This document shows, piece after piece, positions 12,909 to 24,492 of a stretch of 39,506 bases of DNA; within the stretch, counting starts at the first letter, position 1; every line of letters starts with the position of its first letter. The DNA is from Desulfobulbaceae bacterium. Its GTDB lineage: Bacteria > Desulfobacterota > Desulfobulbia > Desulfobulbales > Desulfobulbaceae. The stretch covers positions 1 to 39,506 of the forward strand of contig JAABPV010000023.1 of NCBI GenBank assembly GCA_011391865.1, written 5' to 3'. A program made the translations under genes and the position numbers. The notes beneath the pieces are model-generated. The model was not told where the DNA came from and did no database searches. It saw nothing but the letters and a program-made list of their open reading frames with translations.

Positions 12909-14378
12909 ATGTCTAACTATTTTAACAGCCTGCCCCTGCGCCTTCAGCTGGACGAGCTGGGCCGCTGCCGTTTCATGCAGGCCTCCGAGTTCAATGGTGT
13001 GGAAGCCCTCAAGGGCAAGAAGATCGTCATCGTTGGTTGTGGGGCGCAGGGACTCAATCAGGGGCTGAACCTGCGCGATAGCGGTTTGGACGTGTCTTAC
13101 ACCCTGCGCGACGCGGCCATTGCCACCAAGCGTCTGTCCTGGCAGCGTGCTACAGAGAACGGCTTCAAGGTCGGCACCTATCAGGAGATGCTGCCGAGTG
13201 CTGATCTGGTCATCAACCTGACCCCGGACAAGCAGCACTCCAGCGTGATCAAGGCGGTGATGCCACTGATGAAGGAGAACGCCTGCCTCTCATATTCGCA
13301 CGGTTTCAACATCGTCGAAGAAGGGATGCAAATCCGTAAGGACATCACCGTCATCATGGTTGCGCCCAAATCGCCTGGCACTGAGGTGCGGCATGAGTAC
13401 CAGCGCGGCTTCGGCGTGCCGACCCTGCTGGCTGTGCACCGCGAGAACGACCCGCTCGGCATGGGCTGGGACATTGCCAAAGCCTACGCCGCAGGCACCG
13501 GCGGCCACCGCGCAGGCTGCTTGGAGTCCTCCTTTGTCGCTGAGGTGAAGTCTGATCTGATGGGCGAGCAGACCATCCTCTGCGGCATGTTGCAGACCGG
13601 CTCGCTGCTCTGCTTCGAGCGGATGGTTGCGCTGGGCATGGATGCCCGCTATGCGGTCAAGCTGATTCAGAACGGCTGGGAGACCATCACCGAGGCTCTC
13701 AAGCTCGGCGGCATCACCAACATGATGGACCGGCTGTCCAATCCGGCCAAACTGCGGGCCTTCCAGCTTGCTGACGAGCTGAAGCGCATTCTCAGGCCGC
13801 TCTTCTGCAAGCACATGGACGACATCATGTCCGGCCAGTTCTCCACAACCATGATGCAGGACTGGGCCAATGACGATGCCAACCTGCTCACATGGCGCAA
13901 GGCCACTGGCGAGACCGCCTTTGAGAAGACAGAAGCGGCGGATATGGCCATCAGCGAGCAGGAGTATTTCGACAAGGGCATCCTGATGGTGGCGATGGTC
14001 AAAGCGGGCGTGGAGCTGGCCTTCAACACCATGGTCTCTTCCGGCATCAAGGCGGAGTCAGCCTATTACGAATCCTTGCACGAGCTGCCGCTGATCGCCA
14101 ACCTGATCACCCGCAAGAAGCTGTATGAGATGAACGTGGTGATTTCTGACACCGCCGAGTACGGCTGCTATCTCTTCAACCATGCAGCCTATCCGCTGCT
14201 GCAAGGCTTCATGAAGACCCTGGGCGCGGATGTGATTGGCAAAGGGCTGGATGTGAAGGACAACTCTGTCAGCAACAAGGAGCTGATCGAGGTTAACCGG
14301 ATCATCCGCAGCACCGGCGTGGAGACCATCGGCGCGGAGCTGCGCGGCTATATGAGCGCGATGAAGGCGATTATTTGA
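12909..14378 (+). CDS. ilvC: Ketol-acid reductoisomerase, class II (long form)
   Basis: 489 aa, colinear with E. coli IlvC (491 aa). It catalyses the NADPH-dependent isomerisation and reduction of acetolactate in valine, leucine and isoleucine synthesis, in the cytoplasm. The Rossmann motif is VGCGAQG (G43, G45, G48). [10 protein letters not shown], the metal-site segment [20 protein letters not shown] and the duplicated class II C-terminal knotted domain ([36 protein letters not shown]) are present. AGGAG precedes the ATG. No other ilv gene is nearby. Its last 39 bases plus 10 downstream bases recur at 18163-18211. Confidence 0.97.
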
Positions 14379-14388
14379 GGTTGGTTGC
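14340..14388 (+). repeat. Direct repeat copy 1: ilvC 3' end
   Basis: This is the 49-bp end of ilvC including the stop and 10 bp downstream. Copy 2 at 18163-18211 differs at two adjacent positions only (AT here, GC there), with the last 37 bp identical. The pair brackets about 3.8 kb of accessory genes and resembles the duplicated gene ends left by site-specific integration, though no integrase gene is present. Confidence 0.85.
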
Positions 14389-14407
14389 CTTTGGAATTGT
14401 AGAATTG

Positions 14408-14502: not shown

Positions 14503-15021
14503 ATGAAAAGCGATGTCTCTACGCGGCTTACACACAGGATTTCCTCTATACTTGAGGACTGTCATTATATCAGGCCACACATAGACAGCTATTTGAGGGA
14601 AACAGATGCTCGCCGGGATATAGACCGCCACATTCTCAGAATACTCAGCAATTCGATAGCAACTCTTGAGATGTTTGTCCCCAGTAAGGAAGGTGCCGAG
14701 TATCACGGGCTACCACGAGAAGTATGCTCGCCGACACCTACACCGAATCTGAATATCCGTCATATTGAGCGCGATGCTACTTGGGACTTTCAACCTTGGA
14801 TTTGCGAAAAGCTTACCCGTATGAATGCCGCATCAAGAGACCTTGCACACTATTGGCTTATTGAGATAGGAGATGTTCAGCTAAAACCTGATGCACCCAT
14901 GTCGCCAAAAAAATGGCTTAAGGGTCTCATTGCAGCCCATTTTGAGGAAGTATTTAGTGAAGCGAGCATCATATTTGAGCAATTCTGTGCAGGCAAGATA
15001 GTGATTGACGAGAAGGGCTAA
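14503..15021 (+). CDS. Hypothetical protein
   Basis: 172 aa with a good AGGAG site before the ATG at 14503. The sequence is mostly helical, charged and soluble, with no signal peptide or membrane helix. Features include SILEDCHYIRPHIDSYL, RHILRILSNSIATLEMF and a C-terminal helix (HFEEVFSEASIIFEQFCAG). Base composition is lower in G+C than ilvC, consistent with accessory origin. It lies immediately inside the ilvC-end repeat. I recognise no family. Confidence 0.65.
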   Translation: MKSDVSTRLTHRISSILEDCHYIRPHIDSYLRETDARRDIDRHILRILSNSIATLEMFVPSKEGAEYHGLPREVCSPTPTPNLNIRHIERDATWDFQPWICEKLTRMNAASRDLAHYWLIEIGDVQLKPDAPMSPKKWLKGLIAAHFEEVFSEASIIFEQFCAGKIVIDEKG

Positions 15022-15130: not shown

Positions 15131-15165
15131 CTCACACCATTTTCACACCCGCCAGCCTGTGCGCC

Positions 15166-15639
15166 CTATTCCCCGCACTCAGCCTTCAGCCGCTCCACAA
15201 GGCGGAGATGATAGCGCAGGCCATGCCGCCGCATCTCCTCCACGCACTGCGAGAAAGACGCAATCAGGCCCTTCCGCTTGGCGTTCAGCAGGATGCCCAA
15301 GGTGCCGATGACGGAAAGGCCGAGATACTCCGCCACATTGCGGCCAATCTTCTCATCAATGATGACCAGATCAGCCTTATGCTCGCAGGCGGCATGAATG
15401 GTGTGCTTCTCGCCTTTGTCGAGTTCAAGCAGGGCAAGGGTGCTGATCTCAGGAGAGGACGGCACTGTTTGCAGCCAAGGCAGTGCTGCCAGATCAGGCA
15501 CAGCAATCAGCCCGCCTGCGCGGCATTCTTCGACAACTTCTGGCACCACGCAGACTTGGGCAAACAGGCTCGGCAGCAGGTCAAGCTGGCCGATTGAGGA
15601 AAGCGCAATGAACGGCGTGGTGTTGGAGAAAACAATCAC
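15166..15639 (-). CDS. DUF3368-type PIN domain toxin
   Basis: 157 aa. The PIN RNase pattern is visible: an N-terminal strand with IVFSNTTPFIALSSIGQLDLL, where the usual first Asp (S-D-T/S-P) is replaced by Asn (S-N-T-T-P). The mid acidic residues are in LDKGEKHTIHAA (GE) and ADLVIIDEKIGRNVAEYLGL (DE), with IGTLGILLNAKRKGLI typical of DUF3368. Such proteins are toxin RNases of type II toxin-antitoxin pairs. The gene overlaps the antitoxin stop by 4 nt (ATGA). Asn at the first acidic position may still permit folding but could weaken metal binding; many DUF3368 members carry this variation, so inactivity is not assumed. Confidence 0.8.
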   Translation of the reverse strand: MIVFSNTTPFIALSSIGQLDLLPSLFAQVCVVPEVVEECRAGGLIAVPDLAALPWLQTVPSSPEISTLALLELDKGEKHTIHAACEHKADLVIIDEKIGRNVAEYLGLSVIGTLGILLNAKRKGLIASFSQCVEEMRRHGLRYHLRLVERLKAECGE

Positions 15640-15890
15640 AGCAGCATCGTCTCCCGGCGGAAGTCGTCTGCGGAGTCCTCAAGCAGCGCGGCTCCCTGCT
15701 CCATCGCCTTGAAAAGAAAGGCAGGCCGTGGCATATCCAGCCATTTTGCTGCCATGCCGGAAGAAATGCTTCCTTTCCTGAACAAGGCAATTGCCGCCTC
15801 CAGCTTGACCATCTCCGCAAGGCGTTCCACATTCACATGCAGGCCCAGCAGCAGCTCTGCCGGGCATTCTATGCGCATGACCTTTTCCAT
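15636..15890 (-). CDS. UPF0175 family antitoxin
   Basis: 84 aa; an internal ATG at 15878 is an alternative start. The C-terminal half (LEAAIALFRKGSISSGMAAKWLDMPRPAFLFKAMEQG) is the UPF0175 helix-turn-helix, and the N-terminus begins with a strand and helix. UPF0175 proteins pair with DUF3368 PIN toxins and autoregulate the operon. The gene follows the DUF4469-type gene by only 16 nt, so the toxin-antitoxin pair is probably cotranscribed with it. Confidence 0.8.
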   Translation of the reverse strand: MEKVMRIECPAELLLGLHVNVERLAEMVKLEAAIALFRKGSISSGMAAKWLDMPRPAFLFKAMEQGAALLEDSADDFRRETMLL

Positions 15891-15906
15891 GACCTCAGTT
15901 CCCCCT

Positions 15907-16983
15907 TCACCCCACCCTCACATCCAGCACATCCACCAGCCTGCCGTCGTACTCGTTGACGACCAGCGTCTTCAAGGCGGCGTAGTTATCCACCCGAATA
16001 CTCAGGCTGCTCACTGCCGAGCCGCTGAAGCCGGGCAGAGTGAATTCCCCGTTCCCGGTGGCCGGGATCATCGCTCCTTGCCTGCCGCCGTCCTGCATGT
16101 CAAGCAACCTGAAGGCGAGAAGATCCTCCTGCACGTTGTGTTCGACCTGGATGCGCAGTTGCGTGTCTTCAGCCAGACTGCCTGCGGTGATGACCACATA
16201 GGGCGCAGCCGCGCTGCCGGTGAGAATACCGGTCTCAGACGGGATAGGCATTCCCAGCCCCGGCACGGTCAGAGGTGCGCGCAGTCTGCGGCCATAAATG
16301 CCGGTGCGGATCGAGCCGTGTTCGGTGTACTGGGTGGTGATGGACACCGTATACTCGTTATTCCAAAGGTTGGACTGGGCCGGAAGGTGCGGCACCAGCA
16401 GGACTTCCGTGTCGCTGATGCTGGCGAACTGGGTCTGCGTCGTGCTGCCGCTCTCGGTTCCAGTCAGCACGCAATGGCTGTTCGGCGACCGCCAGTCAAA
16501 GGCAAGATGGCTGCCGGTCAAACGGAGGACACCAGCCGGGTTGAGGACATTGTTCAGCCCGGTCATTGTGTCTGCGGCGGCAAGAAGTGCTGGCATCTTT
16601 TCTGTATACGACTCACGCACCAAATTGGCGGCAGCCTGCACATGCTTGACAAAAGGACGTGAGGCGGAGATATTGATCCTGAGGAGTTCTTTGACAGGCG
16701 GCAGCGGTGTATTTGGCGAGGCCAGCCGGGCCGTGAAGGCGGGCCGGAAGGTCATGGCATTCTCCAAGGTGACTTGCAAGCCCTCAAGCAGCATTGCCTG
16801 AATTTCCTCCATTGTCGAGCGCAGATGCGTTTTGATCTGCTCTGCTGAGGAGCCGGGATTCTTTTGGGCAACCCGCGCCGCCACCTCGTCGTAGCCTGCT
16901 GTCCATTGTGGGACAAAGCGGAGCCGGTAGGAAGCGGGTTTGGTCAGGGGATTATGCTCAACGCGGTAGTGAATGCCTTGCAT
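15907..16983 (-). CDS. DUF4469-type protein with HU-like N-terminal DNA-binding domain
   Basis: 358 aa. The N-terminus (IHYRVEHNPLTKPASYRLRFVPQ...VAARVAQKNPGSSAEQIKTHLRSTMEEIQAMLLEGLQVTLENAMTF) has the layout of the IHF/HU-like domain found before DUF4469 regions. The middle and C-terminal parts (residues about 150-358) are beta-rich, with a final Ig-like repeat ending NEYDGRLVDVLDVRVG. DUF4469 proteins are poorly characterised; DNA binding is inferred from the family. GGAGG precedes the ATG. A strong promoter at 17042-17070 and a 23-bp repeat array lie upstream. It heads an apparent operon with the toxin-antitoxin genes. Its C-terminal coding tail recurs at 18330-18432 and more divergently at 17223-17261. 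Confidence 0.7.
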   Translation of the reverse strand: MQGIHYRVEHNPLTKPASYRLRFVPQWTAGYDEVAARVAQKNPGSSAEQIKTHLRSTMEEIQAMLLEGLQVTLENAMTFRPAFTARLASPNTPLPPVKELLRINISASRPFVKHVQAAANLVRESYTEKMPALLAAADTMTGLNNVLNPAGVLRLTGSHLAFDWRSPNSHCVLTGTESGSTTQTQFASISDTEVLLVPHLPAQSNLWNNEYTVSITTQYTEHGSIRTGIYGRRLRAPLTVPGLGMPIPSETGILTGSAAAPYVVITAGSLAEDTQLRIQVEHNVQEDLLAFRLLDMQDGGRQGAMIPATGNGEFTLPGFSGSAVSSLSIRVDNYAALKTLVVNEYDGRLVDVLDVRVG

Positions 16984-17041
16984 GATGTCCTCCGTGAGGA
17001 TTTAAGCTGCTGATGCAACTGGATAACAAGCTGGTTCGCTC

Positions 17042-17070
17042 AAGATACGGAGCAGCAGGTTCTTTGTCAA
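17042..17070 (-). promoter_or_regulatory. Promoter of the DUF4469-type gene
   Basis: On the minus strand, TTGACA (17070-17065), a 17-bp spacer and TATCTT (17047-17042) precede the gene start by about 59 nt. Its spacer end (GCTCCGTAT) matches the promoter of the lamin-tail-like gene at 17985-18013. Confidence 0.65.
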
Positions 17071-17086
17071 CACAAATATGGGCAAA

Positions 17087-17178
17087 GTCCATGCAAGCAT
17101 GGAGCGAGTCTCCATGCTACGTTGGAGGCATCCTCCATGCTGGCATCGAGATTTTCTCCATGCTGGCATGGAGCGGAG
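17087..17178. repeat. Four-unit 23-bp palindromic tandem array
   Basis: Four units start at 17087, 17110, 17133 and 17156. The last is the cleanest, with CTCCATGC, a 2-bp centre, GCATGGAG and a 5-bp spacer. Units diverge by substitutions but keep exact 23-bp spacing. The array begins 16 bp upstream of the -35 element of the DUF4469-type gene. It has no distinct spacers and so is not CRISPR. It could be operator sites or protein-binding iterons. Confidence 0.85.
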
Positions 17179-17202
17179 GTCTGTCGGCTGCGTTGCCGGG
17201 GT

Positions 17203-17217
17203 TTCTCTGTTGACGCA
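17203..17217. repeat. Shared upstream block, copy 1
   Basis: TTTCTCTGTTGACG on the plus strand recurs at 18039-18052 upstream of the lamin-tail-like gene. Together with the similar promoters it shows that the two upstream regions are related. Confidence 0.6.
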
Positions 17218-17222
17218 GGGAC

Positions 17223-17261
17223 ACACCATCTTCACATCCCAAATATCCAACAGCCTGAGTT
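17223..17261 (-). pseudogene. Remnant of a DUF4469-type C-terminal tail
   Basis: Read on the minus strand this encodes QLRLLDIWDVKMV, in codon register with the tail GRLVDVLDVKMG of the copy at 18.34 kb (R-L-x-D-x-x-D-V-K-M conserved). It sits directly downstream of the lamin-tail-like gene in a different frame. It is a divergent second copy of the coding tail seen at 15907 and 18337. Confidence 0.55.
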
Positions 17262-17273
17262 GCTCTTCATCAG

Positions 17274-17891
17274 CTATTTCAGCAGCAGGAAACGAATACC
17301 TTGAAGGCTGCTGTGCGCCGAGCTGGCTACTTTGGGGAAAACCTGCCCTGTATTAACAGTGCCCGGCGTGGCAGGGGCAGTGTCAGCCCATGTGAAATCT
17401 TCATACACCCTGCCAGTTCCTGTTAGTTGCAGGGAGTCTCCCGATGTTGCGCCGGTCTGAGACACTCTAATATCAGTGCTTGTCATGCCATTGGCTGGGC
17501 CATCCGCAGCAGTTAACGTACCTTCATAGCTGAGAAACTGGACAACCTTGTTTGTGTTGTCAACCAGAGCCAGCCCGTCCGGGGGGCCGTTCTGAATCCC
17601 TATCTGATAGACAGCAATCATGCCCATGCCATTGCTTGCATCGAGGAGCGTGCCGACAAGGTTTTTGGTCGCATACGTCAATCCATTGTCACCATTGTAA
17701 AACACGACTGACCAGCCGCTAAAGTCGGTGCCGCTTGGGCCGGTTATCTCGACAAACTCATTAATATCTGCGCCGGCATTGTCGTAGTGAATCTCATTGA
17801 TAAAGATCGGCGTAGCCGCTTGCGCTGACAGGGCGGTAGCAAAGCAGGCCGTGAAAGACAGCAGTGAAAGTGCTCCAATATTTTTGATCAT
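17274..17891 (-). CDS. Secreted lamin-tail-domain-like protein
   Basis: 205 aa from the ATG at 17891, which has GAGGAAG upstream; a longer start at 17903 is possible. A signal peptide (MIKNIGALSLLSFTACFATALSAQA) precedes a lamin-tail-like domain: IFINEIHYDNAGADINEFVEITGPSGTDFSGWSVVFYNGDNG, then VQFLSYEGTLTAADGPANGMTSTDI and a cysteine-free beta-rich end. Such domains occur in exported proteins, often attached to nucleases or adhesins. Here the domain stands alone and the C-terminus (SSAHSSLQGIRFLLLK) looks unnatural, suggesting truncation or frame change at the 3' end. It has its own promoter at 17985-18013. Confidence 0.7.
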   Translation of the reverse strand: MIKNIGALSLLSFTACFATALSAQAATPIFINEIHYDNAGADINEFVEITGPSGTDFSGWSVVFYNGDNGLTYATKNLVGTLLDASNGMGMIAVYQIGIQNGPPDGLALVDNTNKVVQFLSYEGTLTAADGPANGMTSTDIRVSQTGATSGDSLQLTGTGRVYEDFTWADTAPATPGTVNTGQVFPKVASSAHSSLQGIRFLLLK

Positions 17892-17984
17892 TTTCTTCCT
17901 CATGCTATTATGCTCGTCCTGCACCTGAAACCGTGCTGGAGGATCAAGCAGCTGGTAAAAAATGTATAATATGCTGACCCCAAC

Positions 17985-18013
17985 ACAATACGGAGCCGCA
18001 ATGTTCCTGTCAA
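17985..18013 (-). promoter_or_regulatory. Promoter of the lamin-tail-like gene
   Basis: On the minus strand, TTGACA (18013-18008), a 17-bp spacer and TATTGT (17990-17985). The spacer end GGCTCCGTAT and the flanking bases align with the DUF4469 promoter, showing common origin. Confidence 0.6.
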
Positions 18014-18162
18014 TGAAAAAGTGCCTCGGCTACAGGATTTTCTCTGTTGACGTGGGGGGATACAGTCTGTAATGTGCAGAGGGGCGGCACCCTTTCCGTC
18101 GCCGCCGCAACGATGTCCTTCAGCCAAGCAGGCCTGCTTTAGCTGCGCTTCATCATACGCAA

Positions 18163-18211
18163 CTGCGCGGCTGCATGAGCGCGATGAAGGCGATTATTTG
18201 AGGTTGGTTGC
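18163..18211 (+). repeat. Direct repeat copy 2: displaced ilvC 3' end
   Basis: This is the 49-bp match to 14340-14388, including the ilvC codons for the last 12 residues and the stop, but with no ilvC body upstream. It marks the right edge of the accessory segment, before the palindrome and glcD-like gene. Confidence 0.85.
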
Positions 18212-18221
18212 GGGGGAATCA

Positions 18222-18256
18222 GTAGGTTGGGGTTCATGCAATGAACCCCAACCTAC
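18222..18256. repeat. REP-like palindrome after the second ilvC end
   Basis: A perfect 16-bp stem (GTAGGTTGGGGTTCAT and its complement) has a GCA loop. The sequence is of the common dispersed 'GTAGGTTGGGGTT...AACCCCAACCTAC' kind seen in many bacterial genomes. It lies 11 bp after the ilvC-end copy. Confidence 0.8.
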
Positions 18257-18329
18257 GTTACTGGATGGAACAACGGCGTGTTGACCAAGACTATCGAATA
18301 ACTGAACCCAGCAAGAGCAGGCGCAAGCC

Positions 18330-18432
18330 TTCCCCCTTACCCCATCTTCACATCCAGCACATCCACCAGCCTGCCGTCGTACTCGTTGACGACCAACGTC
18401 TTCAAGGCGGCGCAGTTCTCCACCTTGATGCC
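18330..18432 (-). pseudogene. 3' fragment of a second DUF4469-type gene
   Basis: On the minus strand this encodes the last 30 or so residues of a DUF4469-type protein (ending CAALKTLVVNEYDGRLVDVLDVKMG) plus a few downstream bases. It matches 15899-15996 at about 85-90% identity by eye. No remaining gene body precedes it; the sequence continues into the glcD-like gene on the other strand. It ends about 20 bp before the glcD-like start. Confidence 0.8.
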
Positions 18433-18453: not shown

Positions 18454-19830
18454 ATGGATAAACACATCCTCAAAGAACTCCGGCGCATTCTCGGCCCGGA
18501 CAGCCTGCTGACGAGCTGGGAAGACCGCGCCTGCTACAGCTACGACGCGACCGGCCAGAGCTTTCTGCCGGATGCCGCCGCGCTGCCGGAAACAGCGGAG
18601 CAGGTCGCGGCAATCCTGCGGCTGGCCAACGAACACCGCTTTCCGGTCATCCCTCGCGGCGCGGGCAGCGGCGTGACCGGCGGCGCGCTGCCGACAACGG
18701 GCGGGCTGGTCATCACCTTCAGCCGGATGAACCGGATTCTGGAGATTGATGCCGCCAACATGATCGCCGTGGTTGAGCCGGGCCTGATCACCGGCGAGCT
18801 GCAAGCGGCCCTGAAAAAACGCGGCCTGATGTACCCGCCCGATCCTGCCAGCCTGAAATTCTGCTCCATCGGCGGCAACGCGGCGGAATGCGCGGGCGGC
18901 CCCAGCGCGGTCAAGTACGGCGTGACCCGCGACTACATCATCGGCTTGGAGGCGGTGCTGCCCACCGGCGAGATCATCAAGACCGGGGTGCGCACAGAAA
19001 AAGGCGTGGTCGGCTACGATCTGACCCGCCTGCTGATTGGCTCGGAAGGCACGCTGGCGGTCTTCACCAAGCTGATCCTGCGCCTGCTGCCGCTGGCCGA
19101 GAGCAAAGCCACCTTTCTCCTCACCTTCCCTGATTTGGCTGAAGCGACGACATTGGTGGCGGAAATCCTCGCCGCCGGGCTGCTGCCCTGCACCTTGGAA
19201 TACATGGATAAAACCGCCATCGCCGCTGTACGCGACCGGCTGAAGCAGCCGCTGCCGGACGGAACTGCGGCCCTGCTTTTGGTGGAATTCGACGGCAGCA
19301 AGGAGGAGGTAAGTCAGCAGGCGGGCCGCTTTGCCAAATTTGTTGCGGAAAAAGGCAACTGTGCGCTCCGGCAGGCGGCGGACGAGCAGGAGACGGCGGA
19401 GCTGTGGCTGGCGCGGCGGTCGATCTCGCCTGCGGTGCTCTCGCTCAGGCCGCACAAAATCGCCGAAGATGTGGTGGTGCCGCGCTCCAAGATTCCCGAT
19501 CTGGTCGCCTTCACCGAGCGGCTGGCCGTTGAGCTGAAGCTGCTCATCCTCACCTTCGGCCACGCGGGCGACGGCAATATCCACGTCAACATCATGCTCG
19601 ACAAGAGCCAGCCCGACGAACACAGCAACGGCCTTGAGGCTAAGGAGCGGCTCTTCCGCTTTGTCCTCAGCCTCGGCGGCACGCTCTCCGGTGAACACGG
19701 CATCGGCATCACCAAATCCACCTTCCTGCCGCTGGAGATTGACCCAGCCAGCCTCCAGCTCATGCGCAAACTGAAGCAGCTTTTTGATCCGAACGGCATT
19801 CTCAATCCGGGCAAAATCTTCCCTGAGTAA
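18454..19830 (+). CDS. FAD-linked oxidase, glycolate oxidase GlcD / D-lactate dehydrogenase type
   Basis: 458 aa from the ATG at 18454. It oxidises a D-2-hydroxy acid (glycolate or D-lactate) with FAD. The FAD PCMH domain is visible: RFPVIPRGAGSGVTGGALPTTGGLVITFSRMN, VEPGLITGELQ, YPPDPASLKFCSIGGNAAECAGGPSAVKYG. The C-terminal cap has HAGDGNIHVNIM and LSGEHGIGITK, the metal/FAD-side signatures. Substrate cannot be set from sequence. Neither the GlcE nor the GlcF/iron-sulphur partner is in the window. No ribosome site is seen, and the DUF4469 fragment ends just upstream, so the native leader may have been replaced. Confidence 0.9.
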   Translation: MDKHILKELRRILGPDSLLTSWEDRACYSYDATGQSFLPDAAALPETAEQVAAILRLANEHRFPVIPRGAGSGVTGGALPTTGGLVITFSRMNRILEIDAANMIAVVEPGLITGELQAALKKRGLMYPPDPASLKFCSIGGNAAECAGGPSAVKYGVTRDYIIGLEAVLPTGEIIKTGVRTEKGVVGYDLTRLLIGSEGTLAVFTKLILRLLPLAESKATFLLTFPDLAEATTLVAEILAAGLLPCTLEYMDKTAIAAVRDRLKQPLPDGTAALLLVEFDGSKEEVSQQAGRFAKFVAEKGNCALRQAADEQETAELWLARRSISPAVLSLRPHKIAEDVVVPRSKIPDLVAFTERLAVELKLLILTFGHAGDGNIHVNIMLDKSQPDEHSNGLEAKERLFRFVLSLGGTLSGEHGIGITKSTFLPLEIDPASLQLMRKLKQLFDPNGILNPGKIFPE

Positions 19831-19931
19831 ATCTGGGCAAGCTGTCGCAGGGGCAGCTCCATCGTCGCAGTCCTCAACTGTTTGCCGCATCCGGCTCGCG
19901 CTTGGATCAGGCGGCAATTCTAACAAATGCA

Positions 19932-19960
19932 TTGACAACGCGGAAAAGCCGAGCTATAGC
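19932..19960 (+). promoter_or_regulatory. Promoter upstream of the 21-bp array
   Basis: TTGACA (19932-19937), a 17-bp spacer and TATAGC (19955-19960). If used, the whole 21-bp array would be transcribed as the 5' leader of the 122-aa gene. Confidence 0.55.
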
Positions 19961-19971
19961 AAGTAGAAGCA

Positions 19972-20244
19972 GTGGGAAATCCCGGCTCGGCCATGAACGT
20001 TCTTGGCTCGCTTTTGCACCTTCCCGGCCAGCTTTGGAAGGTTCCTTGCCGAGCCAATAATCTTCCCGGCTTGGCAGCGGACATCTCTGATCAAGCCGGG
20101 AAGCTCCGCTGCCGACTTGGAAACGTTCATAGCTCGGCCAAGAAGATTCACGGCCAAGCCGGGAAGGTTCTTGGCCGAGCCGTGGACATCCGCAGGCGGG
20201 CCGTGAACGTCCCTGGCTTGGCTGCGGATGTCCGCAGCGCACCG
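19972..20244. repeat. 21-bp dyad tandem array (about 12-13 units)
   Basis: Degenerate units of exactly 21 bp have the consensus GCC-N3-AAN-NTT-N3-GGC, each separated by a variable triplet, so dyads repeat along the array. Because the period is a multiple of three, both strands read as open heptads (for example NLPGLAA, KVLGRAV on plus; NLPGLAV, NLLGRAM on minus). The array ends about 40 bp before the 122-aa gene. I read it as a nucleic-acid element rather than protein coding, since the ribosome site and start follow it. In a transcript it would form a chain of hairpins. Confidence 0.85.
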
Positions 20245-20283
20245 CTCCGCATGGAGCAGCAACTTTTCTCAGGAGGAAAGCTC

Positions 20284-20679: not shown

Positions 20680-20709
20680 CATGGGCAGTTGCTGAGAAAA
20701 CTGCCCATG
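20680..20709. promoter_or_regulatory. Hairpin upstream of the MmeI-like gene
   Basis: CATGGGCAGTT and AACTGCCCATG form a perfect 11-bp stem with an 8-nt loop, 30 bp before the MmeI-like start. There is no T-run. It could be a weak terminator of the 122-aa gene or an operator for the restriction gene. Confidence 0.6.
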
Positions 20710-20739
20710 AGCGCGTTCTTACTCCAACACAGGAAAAAC

Positions 20740-23499
20740 ATGCCCCCACTGAGCTGGAACGAAATCAAATCCCGCGCTCTCGCCTTTGCCCGCGAATGGG
20801 CGGACGAGGCTTCTGAAGATGCGGAAGCGAAAACCTTCTGGAACGAGTTCTTTCAGATCTTCGGCATAGAGCGGAAAAGGGTGGCGCGCTTTGAGCAGCG
20901 GGTGCGAAAGATTGATGGCCGCGACGGCTACATTGATCTGCTCTGGAAAGGGGTGCTTTTAGTCGAGCACAAATCGCGGGGCAAAGACCTTGACCGCGCC
21001 CACGAGCAGGCTCTCGGCTATTTCCCCGGCCTGAAGGAGCGCGAGCTGCCGCGCTACATCCTCGTTTCCGATTTTGCCCGCTTTAGGCTTTATGATTTAG
21101 ACGAAGACAGCCGCCACGACTTTGAGCTGAAGGATTTGCACAAGCACGTGCGGCTCTTCGGCTTCATTGCAGGCTATCAAACCCATGCCCTGCGCGAGCA
21201 AGATCCGGTCAACATCAAGGCGGCGGAGCGCATGGGCCGCCTGCACGACCTGATCAAGGAGAGCGGCTACGGCGGCCATCCCTTGGAGGTCTTTCTTGTC
21301 CGCCTGCTCTTCTGTCTCTTTGCTGAGGACACGGGCATTTTCGAGCGGCAGCAGTTTCAGGAGTTCATCGAGCAGCGCACGCGCGAGGACGGCAGCGATC
21401 TTGGCCCGCAACTGGCTGCCCTCTTCGATGTGCTCAACCGGCCTGAAGTCAGCCGTCTGAAAACCCTGGATGAGCAGCTGGCCGCCTTTCCTTTCATCAA
21501 CGGCAAACTCTTTGCCGAGCCGCTGCCGCTGGCTGCGTTTGACACCGCCATGCGGCAAACCCTGCTCGACTGCTGCGGCTTGGACTGGTCGCGCATCTCG
21601 CCCGCCATCTTCGGCTCGCTGTTCCAGTCGATCATGGACAAGCGGGCATGCCGCAACCTCGGCGCGCACTACACCAGCGAGCGCAACATCCTCAAGCTGA
21701 TCAAGCCGCTCTTTCTCGACACGCTGCGGGAGGAATTTGAGAAGGTCAAGGCAAACCGCAACCGTCTGGCCGAGCTGCACAAGAAGCTGCGCAGTCTGAC
21801 CTTTCTTGATCCGGCCTGCGGCTGCGGCAATTTTCTGGTGATCGCCTACCGCGAGCTGCGTTTGCTCGAATTGGACATCCTGCGGGAGCTGCACAAGAGC
21901 GGCCAGCAGACTCTGGATGTGCGCAATCTGCTCCGTTTGGACGTTGACCAGTTTTTCGGCATCGAGCTGGAGGAGTTTCCCGCGCAAATCGCGCAGGTGG
22001 CTCTGTGGCTGACCGATCACCAGATGAACCAGCAGGTCTCTGAGGAGTTCGGTCTATACTTCGCCCGCATTCCGCTGAAAACCAGCGCGAACATCGTCTG
22101 CGGCAATGCTCTCCGCCTTGACTGGAACGAGGTGGTTCCGGTGGAGCGGCTGAGTTACATCATGGGCAATCCGCCGTTTGTGGGACATCAATGGCGGAAT
22201 GCGGAGCAGGTGGCGGACATGAACGCCATTTGGGGGAAAGAAGGACGTTTTGGCCGCCTTGATTATGTGGCCTGCTGGCACAAAAAGGCTGTCAGCATGA
22301 TGCGGGAAAATGATTCAATCGCCGCCGCGTTTGTTTCAACAAATTCCATCTCGCAAGGCGAGCAGGTCGGCATCTTGTGGCCGGAGCTGATGTCCGCTCA
22401 GGTGAAGATCAACTTTGCGCACCGCCCGTTTCAATGGAACTCTGAGGCGCGGGGCAAGGCGGCGGTGCATTGCGTCATCATCGGTTTCTCTTTGCGCGAT
22501 CAGCCGGAGAAGTGGCTTTTTGAATACGAAACGCCCAACTCCGAACCTCAAGCGCACAAAGTCGGTCAGCTCAATCCGTACTTGATTGACGCAGCCAACG
22601 TTGTCCTGCCTTCGAGATCAGGCCCGTTTCCCGGCGTTCCTCCGATGAAGAAGGGAAGCCAGCCGACCGACGGGGGCAATTTGATCATGACGCAGGAGGA
22701 GAAAGAGGAATTTCTGCGGCTTGAACCGGAAGGAAACTGCTATCTCCGTCCGTATGTCGGCGGAGAAGATTTCATTTCGGGCCGCTGCCGCTGGTGTTTG
22801 TGGCTGAAAGATGCCGATCTGGGCAAGCTGCGCCAGCTTCACCACGTTATGAACCGCGTCAAAGCAGTTAAAGAGTTCCGGTTGAAAAGCCCGACCGCCA
22901 GCGTCCGGGAATTCGCCGATCAGCCGACCTTGTTCACGCAAGACAGGCAGCCCGATTCCCCGTATCTCGCGCTGTCCGAGGTTTCTTCGGAGAACAGACG
23001 GTATATTCCCATCGGTTTTATGGAACCCGACATCATTGCCAGCAACACCTTGCAGATTGTTGTCGGGGCAACGCTGTATGGCTTCGGCGTGATGAACTCC
23101 GCCATGCACATGGCGTGGGTTCACACCGTCTGTGGTCGCCTTGAAAGCCGTATCCGCTACACGCCGTCCGTCTACAACAACTTCCCTTGGCCCGAAAATC
23201 CCAGCGACAAGCAGCAGCAGGCGGTGGAAGCTGCGGCGCAGGCCGTTTTGGATGCCCGCGCTCAGTTCCCGGACTCCTCGCTCGCTGATCTCTACGACCC
23301 GCTGACCATGCCGCCTGTGCTGCTCAAGGCACACCGCGCCTTAGACAAGGCCGTGGACGCTGCCTACGGTCGGCGTGACTTCAAATCCGAGGCCGAGCGG
23401 GTGGCCTTCCTCTTTGATCTGTATCAGAAATACACCGCCAGCCTGCTGCCGCTTGCGGCCAAAGAGAAAAAGACGGGAAGGAGGAAGAAGACGGCGTAG
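20740..23499 (+). CDS. MmeI-like type IIL restriction-modification enzyme (fused nuclease and adenine methyltransferase)
   Basis: 919 aa from the ATG at 20740 (AGGAA upstream), the classic size of MmeI. The N-terminal PD-(D/E)xK nuclease has D66, nine residues, then E76-H-K78 (IDLLWKGVLLVEHKS), the exact spacing of this family. A helical spacer leads to the gamma-class N6-adenine methyltransferase with FLDPACGCGNFL (motif I, about residue 355) and NPPF (motif IV, about 475). A target-recognition domain follows (about 620-800; FISGRCRWCLWL, RRYIPIGFM), then the C-terminal bundle. Type IIL enzymes cut about 20 bp from a short asymmetric site and protect one strand by methylation. No stop or lost motif is seen, so it looks functional. 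Specificity cannot be read off here. Confidence 0.92.
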   Translation: MPPLSWNEIKSRALAFAREWADEASEDAEAKTFWNEFFQIFGIERKRVARFEQRVRKIDGRDGYIDLLWKGVLLVEHKSRGKDLDRAHEQALGYFPGLKERELPRYILVSDFARFRLYDLDEDSRHDFELKDLHKHVRLFGFIAGYQTHALREQDPVNIKAAERMGRLHDLIKESGYGGHPLEVFLVRLLFCLFAEDTGIFERQQFQEFIEQRTREDGSDLGPQLAALFDVLNRPEVSRLKTLDEQLAAFPFINGKLFAEPLPLAAFDTAMRQTLLDCCGLDWSRISPAIFGSLFQSIMDKRACRNLGAHYTSERNILKLIKPLFLDTLREEFEKVKANRNRLAELHKKLRSLTFLDPACGCGNFLVIAYRELRLLELDILRELHKSGQQTLDVRNLLRLDVDQFFGIELEEFPAQIAQVALWLTDHQMNQQVSEEFGLYFARIPLKTSANIVCGNALRLDWNEVVPVERLSYIMGNPPFVGHQWRNAEQVADMNAIWGKEGRFGRLDYVACWHKKAVSMMRENDSIAAAFVSTNSISQGEQVGILWPELMSAQVKINFAHRPFQWNSEARGKAAVHCVIIGFSLRDQPEKWLFEYETPNSEPQAHKVGQLNPYLIDAANVVLPSRSGPFPGVPPMKKGSQPTDGGNLIMTQEEKEEFLRLEPEGNCYLRPYVGGEDFISGRCRWCLWLKDADLGKLRQLHHVMNRVKAVKEFRLKSPTASVREFADQPTLFTQDRQPDSPYLALSEVSSENRRYIPIGFMEPDIIASNTLQIVVGATLYGFGVMNSAMHMAWVHTVCGRLESRIRYTPSVYNNFPWPENPSDKQQQAVEAAAQAVLDARAQFPDSSLADLYDPLTMPPVLLKAHRALDKAVDAAYGRRDFKSEAERVAFLFDLYQKYTASLLPLAAKEKKTGRRKKTA

Positions 23500-23502
23500 A
23501 TA

Positions 23503-24002
23503 TGGCGTTTGACGCTCTGCTGGACTTCAGCGCGGGCGACATGCAGCCTGTTCATCTCCTGCGTCCTCATGCGCTCCAGCGCGTCGCGGCGCATGACAAG
23601 GGAGCGGAGTTCCGCAGGAACAGGCGGAGACGGCTCCCAGAGCGGCGGCCTCCGCTCGGCGCAGAAACGGGCGATGAGGCGGGCATCTTTTTTGTCCGTC
23701 TTGGTGCGGCTCAGGGCGGCGGAGCCGAACGCTTTGATCTGGGCCGGGTTGACCACGCTGACGGCATGGCCCTTTTCCGCGAGAAATGCAGCGGCGGATT
23801 CCCAATAGATTCCGGTCGCCTCCATGCAGGCGTGAACCTGCACGGCATCGTTCCGCTCCAGCCAGACGGCCAGCTTTTCAAAGCCTTCCGGCGTGTTGGG
23901 GATGACTTCGCTCCTGAACTTCCCGTCCGGGAGCAGCAGGGCGATGTCCAGCTTGGCTTTGGCAACGTCGATTCCGAGGATGCGCATCTGACTGACACTC
24001 AT
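23503..24002 (-). pseudogene. Truncated IS110-family transposase
   Basis: About 165 residues of the DEDD (RuvC-like) N-terminal domain: MRILGIDVAKAKLDIALLL, the catalytic-region VHACMEATGIYWE, VVNPAQIKAFGSAALSRTKTDKKDARLIARFC and the start of the coiled region (RRDALERMRTQEMNRLHVARAEVQQSVKRH). The homology stops at about 23503, exactly at the end of the MmeI-like gene. Beyond that the frame only reads antisense of it, so the C-terminal serine-containing domain is missing. GGAGG precedes the ATG at 24002. It is a dead remnant. Confidence 0.88.
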
Positions 24003-24492
24003 GATAAAACCTCCTGCAAACTTAACCTTGCGAATGCGGGCTTCCGGCGGGCCGGGCCATTGATACTGTCCAAGTTCCAGCAGGAAAAAACTGGAGATGC
24101 CGGTGCGTTATCTACGTCGCGGACTCTTGGGTCCAAGGGGCAAAACGGCATCCGGCTCTCCTTGCTTCAGCCAGTTATATTCCGGCTGCGATAAATCTCA
24201 ACCAGAATATAACTGATGGCTCATAATACAAGGGGCAAAAGATTTTTGGCCCCTCGTCTTCATGACTGCCTAGTGAAGGTGACAAAAAGAATTTCATCGA
24301 CAGCCAGCTCCTGCTCCAGCAGAAGGCGGAGGAAGAGCAGAGCGATGGTGTAGGTCTTGTGCTCGTGCCTACGCTGGTTTCAATCAGAATTTGCCCGCGC
24401 AGGGGGAATCAAGGAAAAACATGGGGAAGAAAACGAGGGCGGCCTGAATCAACGCGGCATTTTCTGATGTTGCCGCCAGCATCATCAGAGAT
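24003..24492. other. 490-bp stretch with IS and gene debris
   Basis: This stretch contains the IS110 leader, an 11-bp inverted repeat (CAGTTATATTC at 24172-24182, GAATATAACTG at 24205-24215), an imperfect hairpin (AGGGGC / GGCCCCT at 24231-24254) and the RecB fragment described separately. Nothing else is recognised. Confidence 0.6.
24262..24371 (-). pseudogene. Fragment of RecB-like helicase/exonuclease beta subunit
   Basis: On the minus strand about 32 codons read HKTYTIALLFLRLLLEQ then ELAVDEILFVTFTRQS and a stop. This matches the region after Walker A in RecB (GTGKTYTI...LRLLLE...VDEILVVTFT). The Walker A glycines are already degraded (RRHEHKT) and nothing of the gene remains on either side. 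It indicates that a recBCD-type locus, or part of one, once stood here or was moved here. Confidence 0.55.

Follow-up and report, generated by a model that had tools for sequence, protein, structure and literature searches.

What explains the recurrence of gene ends beside unrelated small genes in the interval between ilvC and a glcD-like gene of a cable bacterium? The DNA analyzed here (the window, 39,506 nucleotides [nt]) is contig C23 of genome G000, a 2.8-Mb draft that is 95% complete. Its host is a Candidatus Electronema cable bacterium, and its glcD-like FAD-linked oxidase gene (18454-19830, + strand) encodes a protein with 96% identity to one of Candidatus Electronema aureum GS. Two convergent genes, which would be the residents of the interval, are ilvC, encoding ketol-acid reductoisomerase (Pfam KARI_N/KARI_C; 12909-14378, +), and a DUF4469-like gene (15907-16983, -). 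The putative cargo consists of a 172-amino-acid (aa) open reading frame (ORF) with no match in Pfam or PADLOC, located between ilvC and the next genes (14503-15021, +), a UPF0175-DUF3368 toxin-antitoxin (TA) module, and a gene for a lamin-tail-domain (LTD) protein (17274-17924, -; Pfam E 2.8e-6, below the curated cut-off). By "displaced tail" we mean an additional copy of the 3' end of a resident gene that does not code and measures about 30-130 nt. Such gene-end copies beside small inserted genes suggest that cassettes spread by recombination in gene ends, with no enzyme of their own.

The DUF4469-like gene ends in a gene-attached tail (15902-15994, -), and a displaced copy of this tail abuts glcD (18332-18424, -). 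The two are 92% identical over 93 nt, and a genome search retrieved the displaced copy at 94% (E 3.3e-35). An eroded copy lies directly after the LTD gene (17223-17261, -) and has 77% and 83% identity to the other two over 35 nt (17223-17257). A nucleotide profile built from 29 tails detected this remnant at 17283-17224 (-) with an E-value of 0.021 in the 876 kb searched; with gene ends and long solo tails set aside, the one better match (G000:C86:24038, E 0.0022) is an eroded tail too. Local alignment of 17216-17273 outscored 2000 of 2000 mononucleotide shuffles with either query. A preliminary description of the window had proposed these copies, with coordinates right to within a few bases; the copies are real and the remnant exceeds chance. 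A possible further eroded tail after the TA module (15139-15163, -) is weak: its local alignment gave a shuffle p of 0.0005-0.002, yet the null maximum was slightly above it, and the nucleotide tail profile missed it. Codon-level gene conversion of the DUF4469 tail was considered and rejected, since the excess codon identity (0.15 in the tail versus 0.09 elsewhere) was too small.

The 3' end of ilvC is duplicated as well. The gene-attached copy, with some flank, spans 14322-14389 (+), and the displaced copy, which the preliminary description had missed, lies at 18158-18211 (+) and is followed by a perfect 16-bp hairpin (18222-18256). At the same locus in G003 (contig C2) and G001 (contig C14), a PIN module downstream of ilvC separates it from a displaced ilvC tail; the PIN cargo in G003 is a PIN gene and a 62-aa ORF. 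What follows ilvC thus differs among genomes: the PIN module in G003 and G001, the 172-aa ORF and TA module in G000, and, by eye, a ClpB-like start in G002. One constant flank was seen per locus, and ilvC and glcD of G003 are on separate contigs (C2 and C26).

The PIN cassette allowed a comparison between species. The ilvC genes of G003 and G001 have 80.7% nucleotide identity, with 77 of 177 four-fold sites unchanged, versus 96.0% identity and 43 of 50 unchanged sites for the PIN gene (Fisher p 5e-8). Identity is 91-100% in alignment windows across the PIN module and ends past the displaced tail. Because the PIN gene is so much more similar than ilvC, this cassette most likely moved between the species after they split. 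Between the two genomes, 14 of 57 sites differ in the gene-attached ilvC tails and 8 of 57 in the displaced ones. For the displaced tail of G001, the count is 11 of 57 against its own ilvC but only 4 of 57 against the native ilvC of G002, which would be hard to obtain by local duplication and easy if the tail travelled with the cassette. These site counts show what appears to be a foreign ancestry for the G001 displaced tail.

Different tails also occur at the glcD end of the interval. The junction between the DUF4469 tail and glcD is common to G000 and G004, and the sequence beyond the tail differs. On the same side of glcD in E. aureum GS stand the final 63 codons of a gene homologous to the window ORF at 23502-24194, whose alignment to this solo tail (L145, 5758-5946) has 87% identity over 217 nt. 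The region upstream of glcD in E. aureum GS holds this ORF230 tail, a 128-aa ORF, and an 849-aa ORF bearing TPR repeats. Thus, tails of different genes, DUF4469 in G000 and G004 and the ORF230 homolog in E. aureum GS, occupy one site.

Displaced tails were then sought across 1,139,676 bases of G000 and G003 by asking, for each of 901 ORFs (100 aa or longer), whether its end or start recurs as a short copy within 6 kb. The tail or DUF4469 gene on G003:C2 and on C86 was known before the scan, and these contigs were not blind. Same-strand solo tails downstream gave 13 hits in 11 genes, and solo heads upstream were found for three genes (11 to 3, p 0.057). Curation removed tail hit C11:91304, as the ORF looks built of a short repeat, and C1:48869, where the copy reads by eye as an internal argS piece. 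Head C22:91474 was dropped because its frame is antisense to tail copies, C33:56744 as a 70% repeat reaching 194 nt in, and C86:24910 as a promoter copy with an ORF call extending upstream. The curated ratio is 9 to 0 (p 0.004). Unused classes comprised five upstream tail hits in two genes (one of them the C22 antisense frame), one downstream head (C22), one opposite-strand tail, 25 internal hits, and 28 paralog hits. Control genome G011 (400 kb, 280 ORFs) yielded 0 tails and two genes with heads.

Five of the nine curated genes enclose TA-family genes together with their displaced tail: ilvC (PIN), a NACHT gene (PIN, HigB, Gp49-HI1420 antidote, and DUF2442), a STAND-WD40 gene (MazE-PIN), a gene of 117 aa (DUF2283), and an ABC-F-like gene (Phd-ParE). 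Here, we assume that DUF2442 and DUF2283 are TA associated. The other enclosed cargo was WXG100 and FtsK genes at a DUF1015 gene, an HD-domain gene at a DnaA gene, a 239-aa ORF at the C86 DUF4469 gene, and a 257-aa ORF at a hexapeptide gene. The DUF4469 tails therefore exemplify a wider phenomenon, in which the displaced 3' ends of genes lie next to inserted cargo, often a TA module. The idea of a DUF4469-specific system, as first described, must be abandoned, as the same displacement is found for ilvC, NACHT, STAND-WD40, and DUF1015 genes and others. In the DUF1015 region (G003:C2, 89194-95100), the gene and its displaced tail bracket the WXG100 and FtsK/SpoIIIE genes, and a FitA-like antitoxin ORF adjoins.

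Some of these loci are arrays. In G000:C22, the NACHT gene is followed by a 75-aa ORF and PIN gene, a tail, a HigB/HTH pair, a second tail, DUF2442 and Gp49/HI1420-antidote genes, and a third tail; by eye, the first tail copy runs beyond the stop codon into the gene's flank. In G000:C44, the STAND-WD40 gene precedes a MazE-like/PIN pair and a 51-nt copy of the host-gene tail with 98% identity. A tail of this type occurs twice in G001:C45 (96% and 91% over 55 nt), each time after a ParE-type gene end, as if module and tail had been duplicated together. The same segment (43990-43006; L360, L362) shows the ParE-type gene end plus STAND-gene tail twice in a row around a Phd/ParE pair. In G001:C2, the 3' ends of a 2-phosphosulfolactate phosphatase gene and of a convergent DUF4469 gene are repeated on either side of an NTase-HepT pair, and in G021 a DUF4469 gene is followed by a HigB toxin gene, a 138-aa ORF, and the tail. 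The cargo at G003 ilvC, at G001:C2 (NTase-HepT), and at G000:C44 (MazE-like/PIN) consists of two small genes and carries no integrase.

Direct repeats were also counted with PIN genes as the starting point. Such repeats lie on both sides of 6 of 20 PIN-domain loci in G000. On eight G000 contigs covered over their full length, they flank 5 of 11 PIN ORFs, compared with 6 of 268 non-PIN ORFs sized 90-260 aa (p 1.4e-5). That comparison set leaves out the neighbors of PIN genes (within 1.5 kb), of which 4 of 17 have repeats; one of its six positives adjoins the DUF2283 gene of C86. Two of four ParE-type loci have flanking repeats. These counts indicate that flanking repeats mark PIN modules, gene tails being one kind among them. 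In G009, which represents another genus of the same family, one of four PIN loci has 164-nt direct repeats with 86% identity (L368, 927-1086 and 1937-2100, reversed locus), so that the effect may extend beyond cable bacteria. One PIN toxin module lies between a cobalamin riboswitch and a partial second copy of it (L367, 790-964 and the opposite side).

We propose that the ilvC-glcD interval would be a locus where small cargo entered at the 3' ends of resident genes. A cassette would carry a host-gene tail at its distal end and enter by homologous recombination in that tail, either by a single crossover or by one-sided recombination with taken-up DNA; homologous recombination is read here from identity shifts only. 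Entry would leave the second, non-coding 3'-end copy near the edge of the cargo, and this displaced tail would then decay. The cassette would have no recombinase of its own, and it would be retained because loss of the TA module is toxic. We give about an even chance to the view that small cassettes enter at gene 3' ends by tail recombination, lack a recombinase, and are kept by toxin addiction. A stronger form is tentative and probably not correct in full: cable bacteria would harbor recombinase-free cassettes of a TA module plus a gene tail, with the tail as a portable homology arm; the crossover would spare the host gene, repeated rounds would build arrays, many hosts would be used, and addiction would replace an integrase in keeping and spreading the cassettes. 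To our knowledge, the movement of chromosomal TA modules without mobile elements is still an open question. As marks of entry, displaced gene tails would lend themselves to counting in any genome, to dating by comparison with the host gene, and to tracing of the donor. If this footprint is general, it would offer a direct test of whether addiction alone can spread a gene.

By analogy, the best parallel among known kinds of elements appears to be the minimal mobile elements of Neisseria, described as different whole-gene cassettes found beside conserved genes and exchanged by homologous recombination, in an account whose relevant portion mentions no such tails (PMC3082526). The likeness lies in differing whole-gene cassettes beside the same conserved gene, which are found here at glcD and ilvC. 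The present loci differ in that copies of resident 3' ends lie at the cargo edge, TA modules are frequent cargo, and one array repeats a tail. Beyond that parallel, the loci add the footprint of tails, the use of several host genes, and an excess of TA modules. Literature searches, from which subscription journals were largely excluded, gave no paper on DUF4469 or on TA modules in combination with homology-facilitated illegitimate recombination, and nothing on point on TA modules in cable bacteria or on flanking direct repeats.

Several observations weigh against recombination-mediated cassette entry. The window is no simple case of gene, cargo, and tail, because its displaced DUF4469 tail (18332) is on the upstream side of the gene instead of the downstream side; its LTD cargo, moreover, is no TA module. 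In G003, the displaced ilvC tail differs from G002 at 5 of 57 sites and the gene-attached tail at 8 of 57, while the two differ from each other by 8. Since the displaced tail is the nearer of the two to G002, the gene-attached end could be the import there, unlike in G001. Plain local duplication would suffice for the displaced DUF4469 tail of G001:C2, whose closest relative is its own gene (95%). A TA pair in G000:C1 is oriented against the host gene, and four of the nine curated cases enclose no recognized TA gene. Before curation, the excess of tails over heads was short of significance, and control genome G011 was not significantly poorer in tails (p 0.08-0.13). The flanking-repeat test scored 5 of 116 ORFs in G011. 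In G000, clear gene-tail repeats were found at only 2 of 20 PIN loci; the remaining flanked loci have copies of a cobalamin riboswitch in one case, an antitoxin-gene start in another, and short repeats in two.

No horizontal cassettes would be needed if a DUF4469 unit had been duplicated in tandem and its body then replaced. We consider this unlikely as a general account, and for the LTD gene it may still hold, as that gene sits between a DUF4469-like promoter and an eroded DUF4469 tail. The DUF4469 promoter (17045-17070, -; TTGACA plus GCTCCGTAT) and the LTD promoter (17988-18013, -) are alignable, and the proposed match beyond the consensus boxes was borne out: TTGACA-N11-GCTCCGTAT has three exact sites in 2.8 Mb, the two in the window and the promoter of another DUF4469 gene. 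Two further sites have one mismatch. With up to two mismatches there are 10 sites versus 5 for a reversed control, and we therefore place weight only on sites with 0-1 mismatch. However, all 29 DUF4469-like genes tested (28 full length and one cut) have TTGACA no more than 130 nt from the start codon, at 71-105 nt, which makes the promoter a feature of the family and not part of a dedicated bracket. Of the fixed promoter-and-tail bracket first proposed, the tails do recur beside different cargo in related genomes, and the promoter belongs to the family. Copies with a promoter or start region joined to the tail and most of the body gone recur in G002:C111, G002:C112, and G003:C28. They are internal deletions and fit the duplication model.

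Sharing of this promoter with other cargo is not an empty claim but a thin one. One further case exists on C86, where a 38-nt copy of the DUF4469 promoter (97% identity) lies ahead of a ParD gene and a gene for a RelE-like protein that scores below its cut-off. With the window's LTD gene, this makes two cases of a DUF4469-type promoter before other genes; ahead of a coding stretch there is a third near-match (C38:10753). The promoter likeness is largely a family likeness among DUF4469 genes, with occasional promoter copying by similar short duplication. The upstream block said to be shared by both genes fared similarly. Its motif TTTCTCTGTTGACG is present exactly at 17202-17215 and 18039-18052, with five exact copies in the genome versus 0 of a reversed control pattern. 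The first site is the edge of a palindromic, repetitive extragenic palindromic-like element (17075-17215), whereas the second is inside a repeat (18035-18130) that is 94% identical to C24:20024-20120, upstream of a UPF0102 (YraN) gene. Because the two sites belong to different longer repeats, TTTCTCTGTTGACG is not one shared part of a bracket. The palindromic element, made of TCCATGCNNGCATGGA-like units, has partial copies at C7 and C38 in addition to that in C23 (L111 from 1969; L113 near 1493). Two points speak against duplication with body replacement: unrelated genes show the same tail displacement, and the displaced ilvC tail of G001, being more similar to the ilvC of another species than to that of its own genome, is no local duplicate.

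Plain decay of a large paralog family, in which internal deletions leave conserved 3' ends with incidental neighbors, is another account that we regard as having a small, real chance. The window gene is called DUF4469-like because its score for DUF4469 (PF14734) is 22.3 bits against a curated cut-off of 22.6. The family was found in 6 of 37 genomes searched, five of this genus and one of another genus in the family, conceivably Electrothrix, since DUF4469 pieces occur in a Ca. Electrothrix aarhusensis contig. The 34 matches in G000 comprise 28 full-length copies, one copy cut by a contig end, four distant ones, and one solo tail, and such an abundance of full-length and broken copies in one genome is what family decay would provide, as are the clear internal deletions. 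The protein's last residues are also well conserved. An HU-like start followed by Ig-like domains fits the predicted structure (mean pLDDT 90.4, pTM 0.62), in which the tail corresponds to a strand-helix-strand at the extreme end. The best match of this model among solved structures is 4fmr, a putative DNA-binding protein of Bacteroides (E 1.3e-11), and single HU-fold chains matched at E 0.007-0.01. Thirteen matches cover only the last 60 residues or fewer. Three of these adjoin the rest of the same broken gene (G003:C69, G003:C3, and G004:C17), leaving 10, and the first G002:C107 tail borders a run of N and was not counted as solo, leaving nine. In addition, there are two longer 3' pieces (G003:C28 and G003:C2) and three short heads away from the first bases of the contig (G002:C67, G002:C102, and G021:C153). 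Family decay does not readily account for the displaced ilvC tails, as no second full ilvC is present among the matches listed for five genomes, nor for the curated ratio of tails to heads or the enrichment of direct repeats around PIN genes.

We consider it improbable that a site-specific element or an integron-like system acts here with a recombinase encoded elsewhere in the genome. The order of gene, cargo, and displaced 3' end is the signature of 3'-end integration, and the C22 array resembles a cassette array. Superintegrons are arrays of small cassettes, some with TA modules, separated by a repeated site, and their attC sites are strongly folded imperfect palindromes. The present arrays likewise have small cassettes, some TA, and a repeated site between them, but this site is the 3' end of the array's host gene and is not attC-like in folding; 8 of 8 tested tails fold no better than shuffles (z -0.18 to -0.97). 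Of the 130 window ORFs of at least 80 aa, 30 were scanned for families and recombinases; neither an integron integrase nor the associated recombinase that the preliminary description had considered decisive was among these 30, and no search was made in the remainder of the genome. Diversity-generating retroelements, which show adenine-specific differences between template and variable repeat, share with the window a near-identical second copy of a gene 3' end near the gene. We rejected this possibility since only 3 of the 7 mismatches in 93 nt are on adenines of the solo copy, with no variable-repeat pattern; a reverse transcriptase was not searched for. Islands that insert at gene 3' ends, such as SGI1, duplicate that end on insertion, and a direct repeat of a gene 3' end at both edges is likewise seen here for ilvC, NACHT, STAND-WD40, DUF4469, and other genes. 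These loci differ in that the cargo can be smaller than 1 kb and integrase free, and the tails come from several unrelated target genes. SGI1 integrates at the 3' end of trmE (PMC8409611).

Chimeric assembly or amplification artefact is highly improbable: the genomes are drafts, and artificial joins are reported for an amplified single-filament cable-bacterium assembly (PMC10926707), but the copies differ by 2-26%, the order ilvC-PIN-tail occurs in two assemblies, and the tail/glcD junction is present in both G000 and G004.

The TA module of the window consists of adjacent genes, and both families score at or above their cut-offs. The DUF3368 protein (15166-15639, -), which we take to be a PIN-like toxin, is PADLOC candidate PDC-S70, and the UPF0175 protein (15636-15890, -), presumably the antitoxin, gave a weak PDC-S70 match. 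Downstream of glcD, intergenic degenerate GC-rich repeats (19907-20262) lie ahead of a small ORF and an MmeI-type restriction-modification gene (20689-23499).

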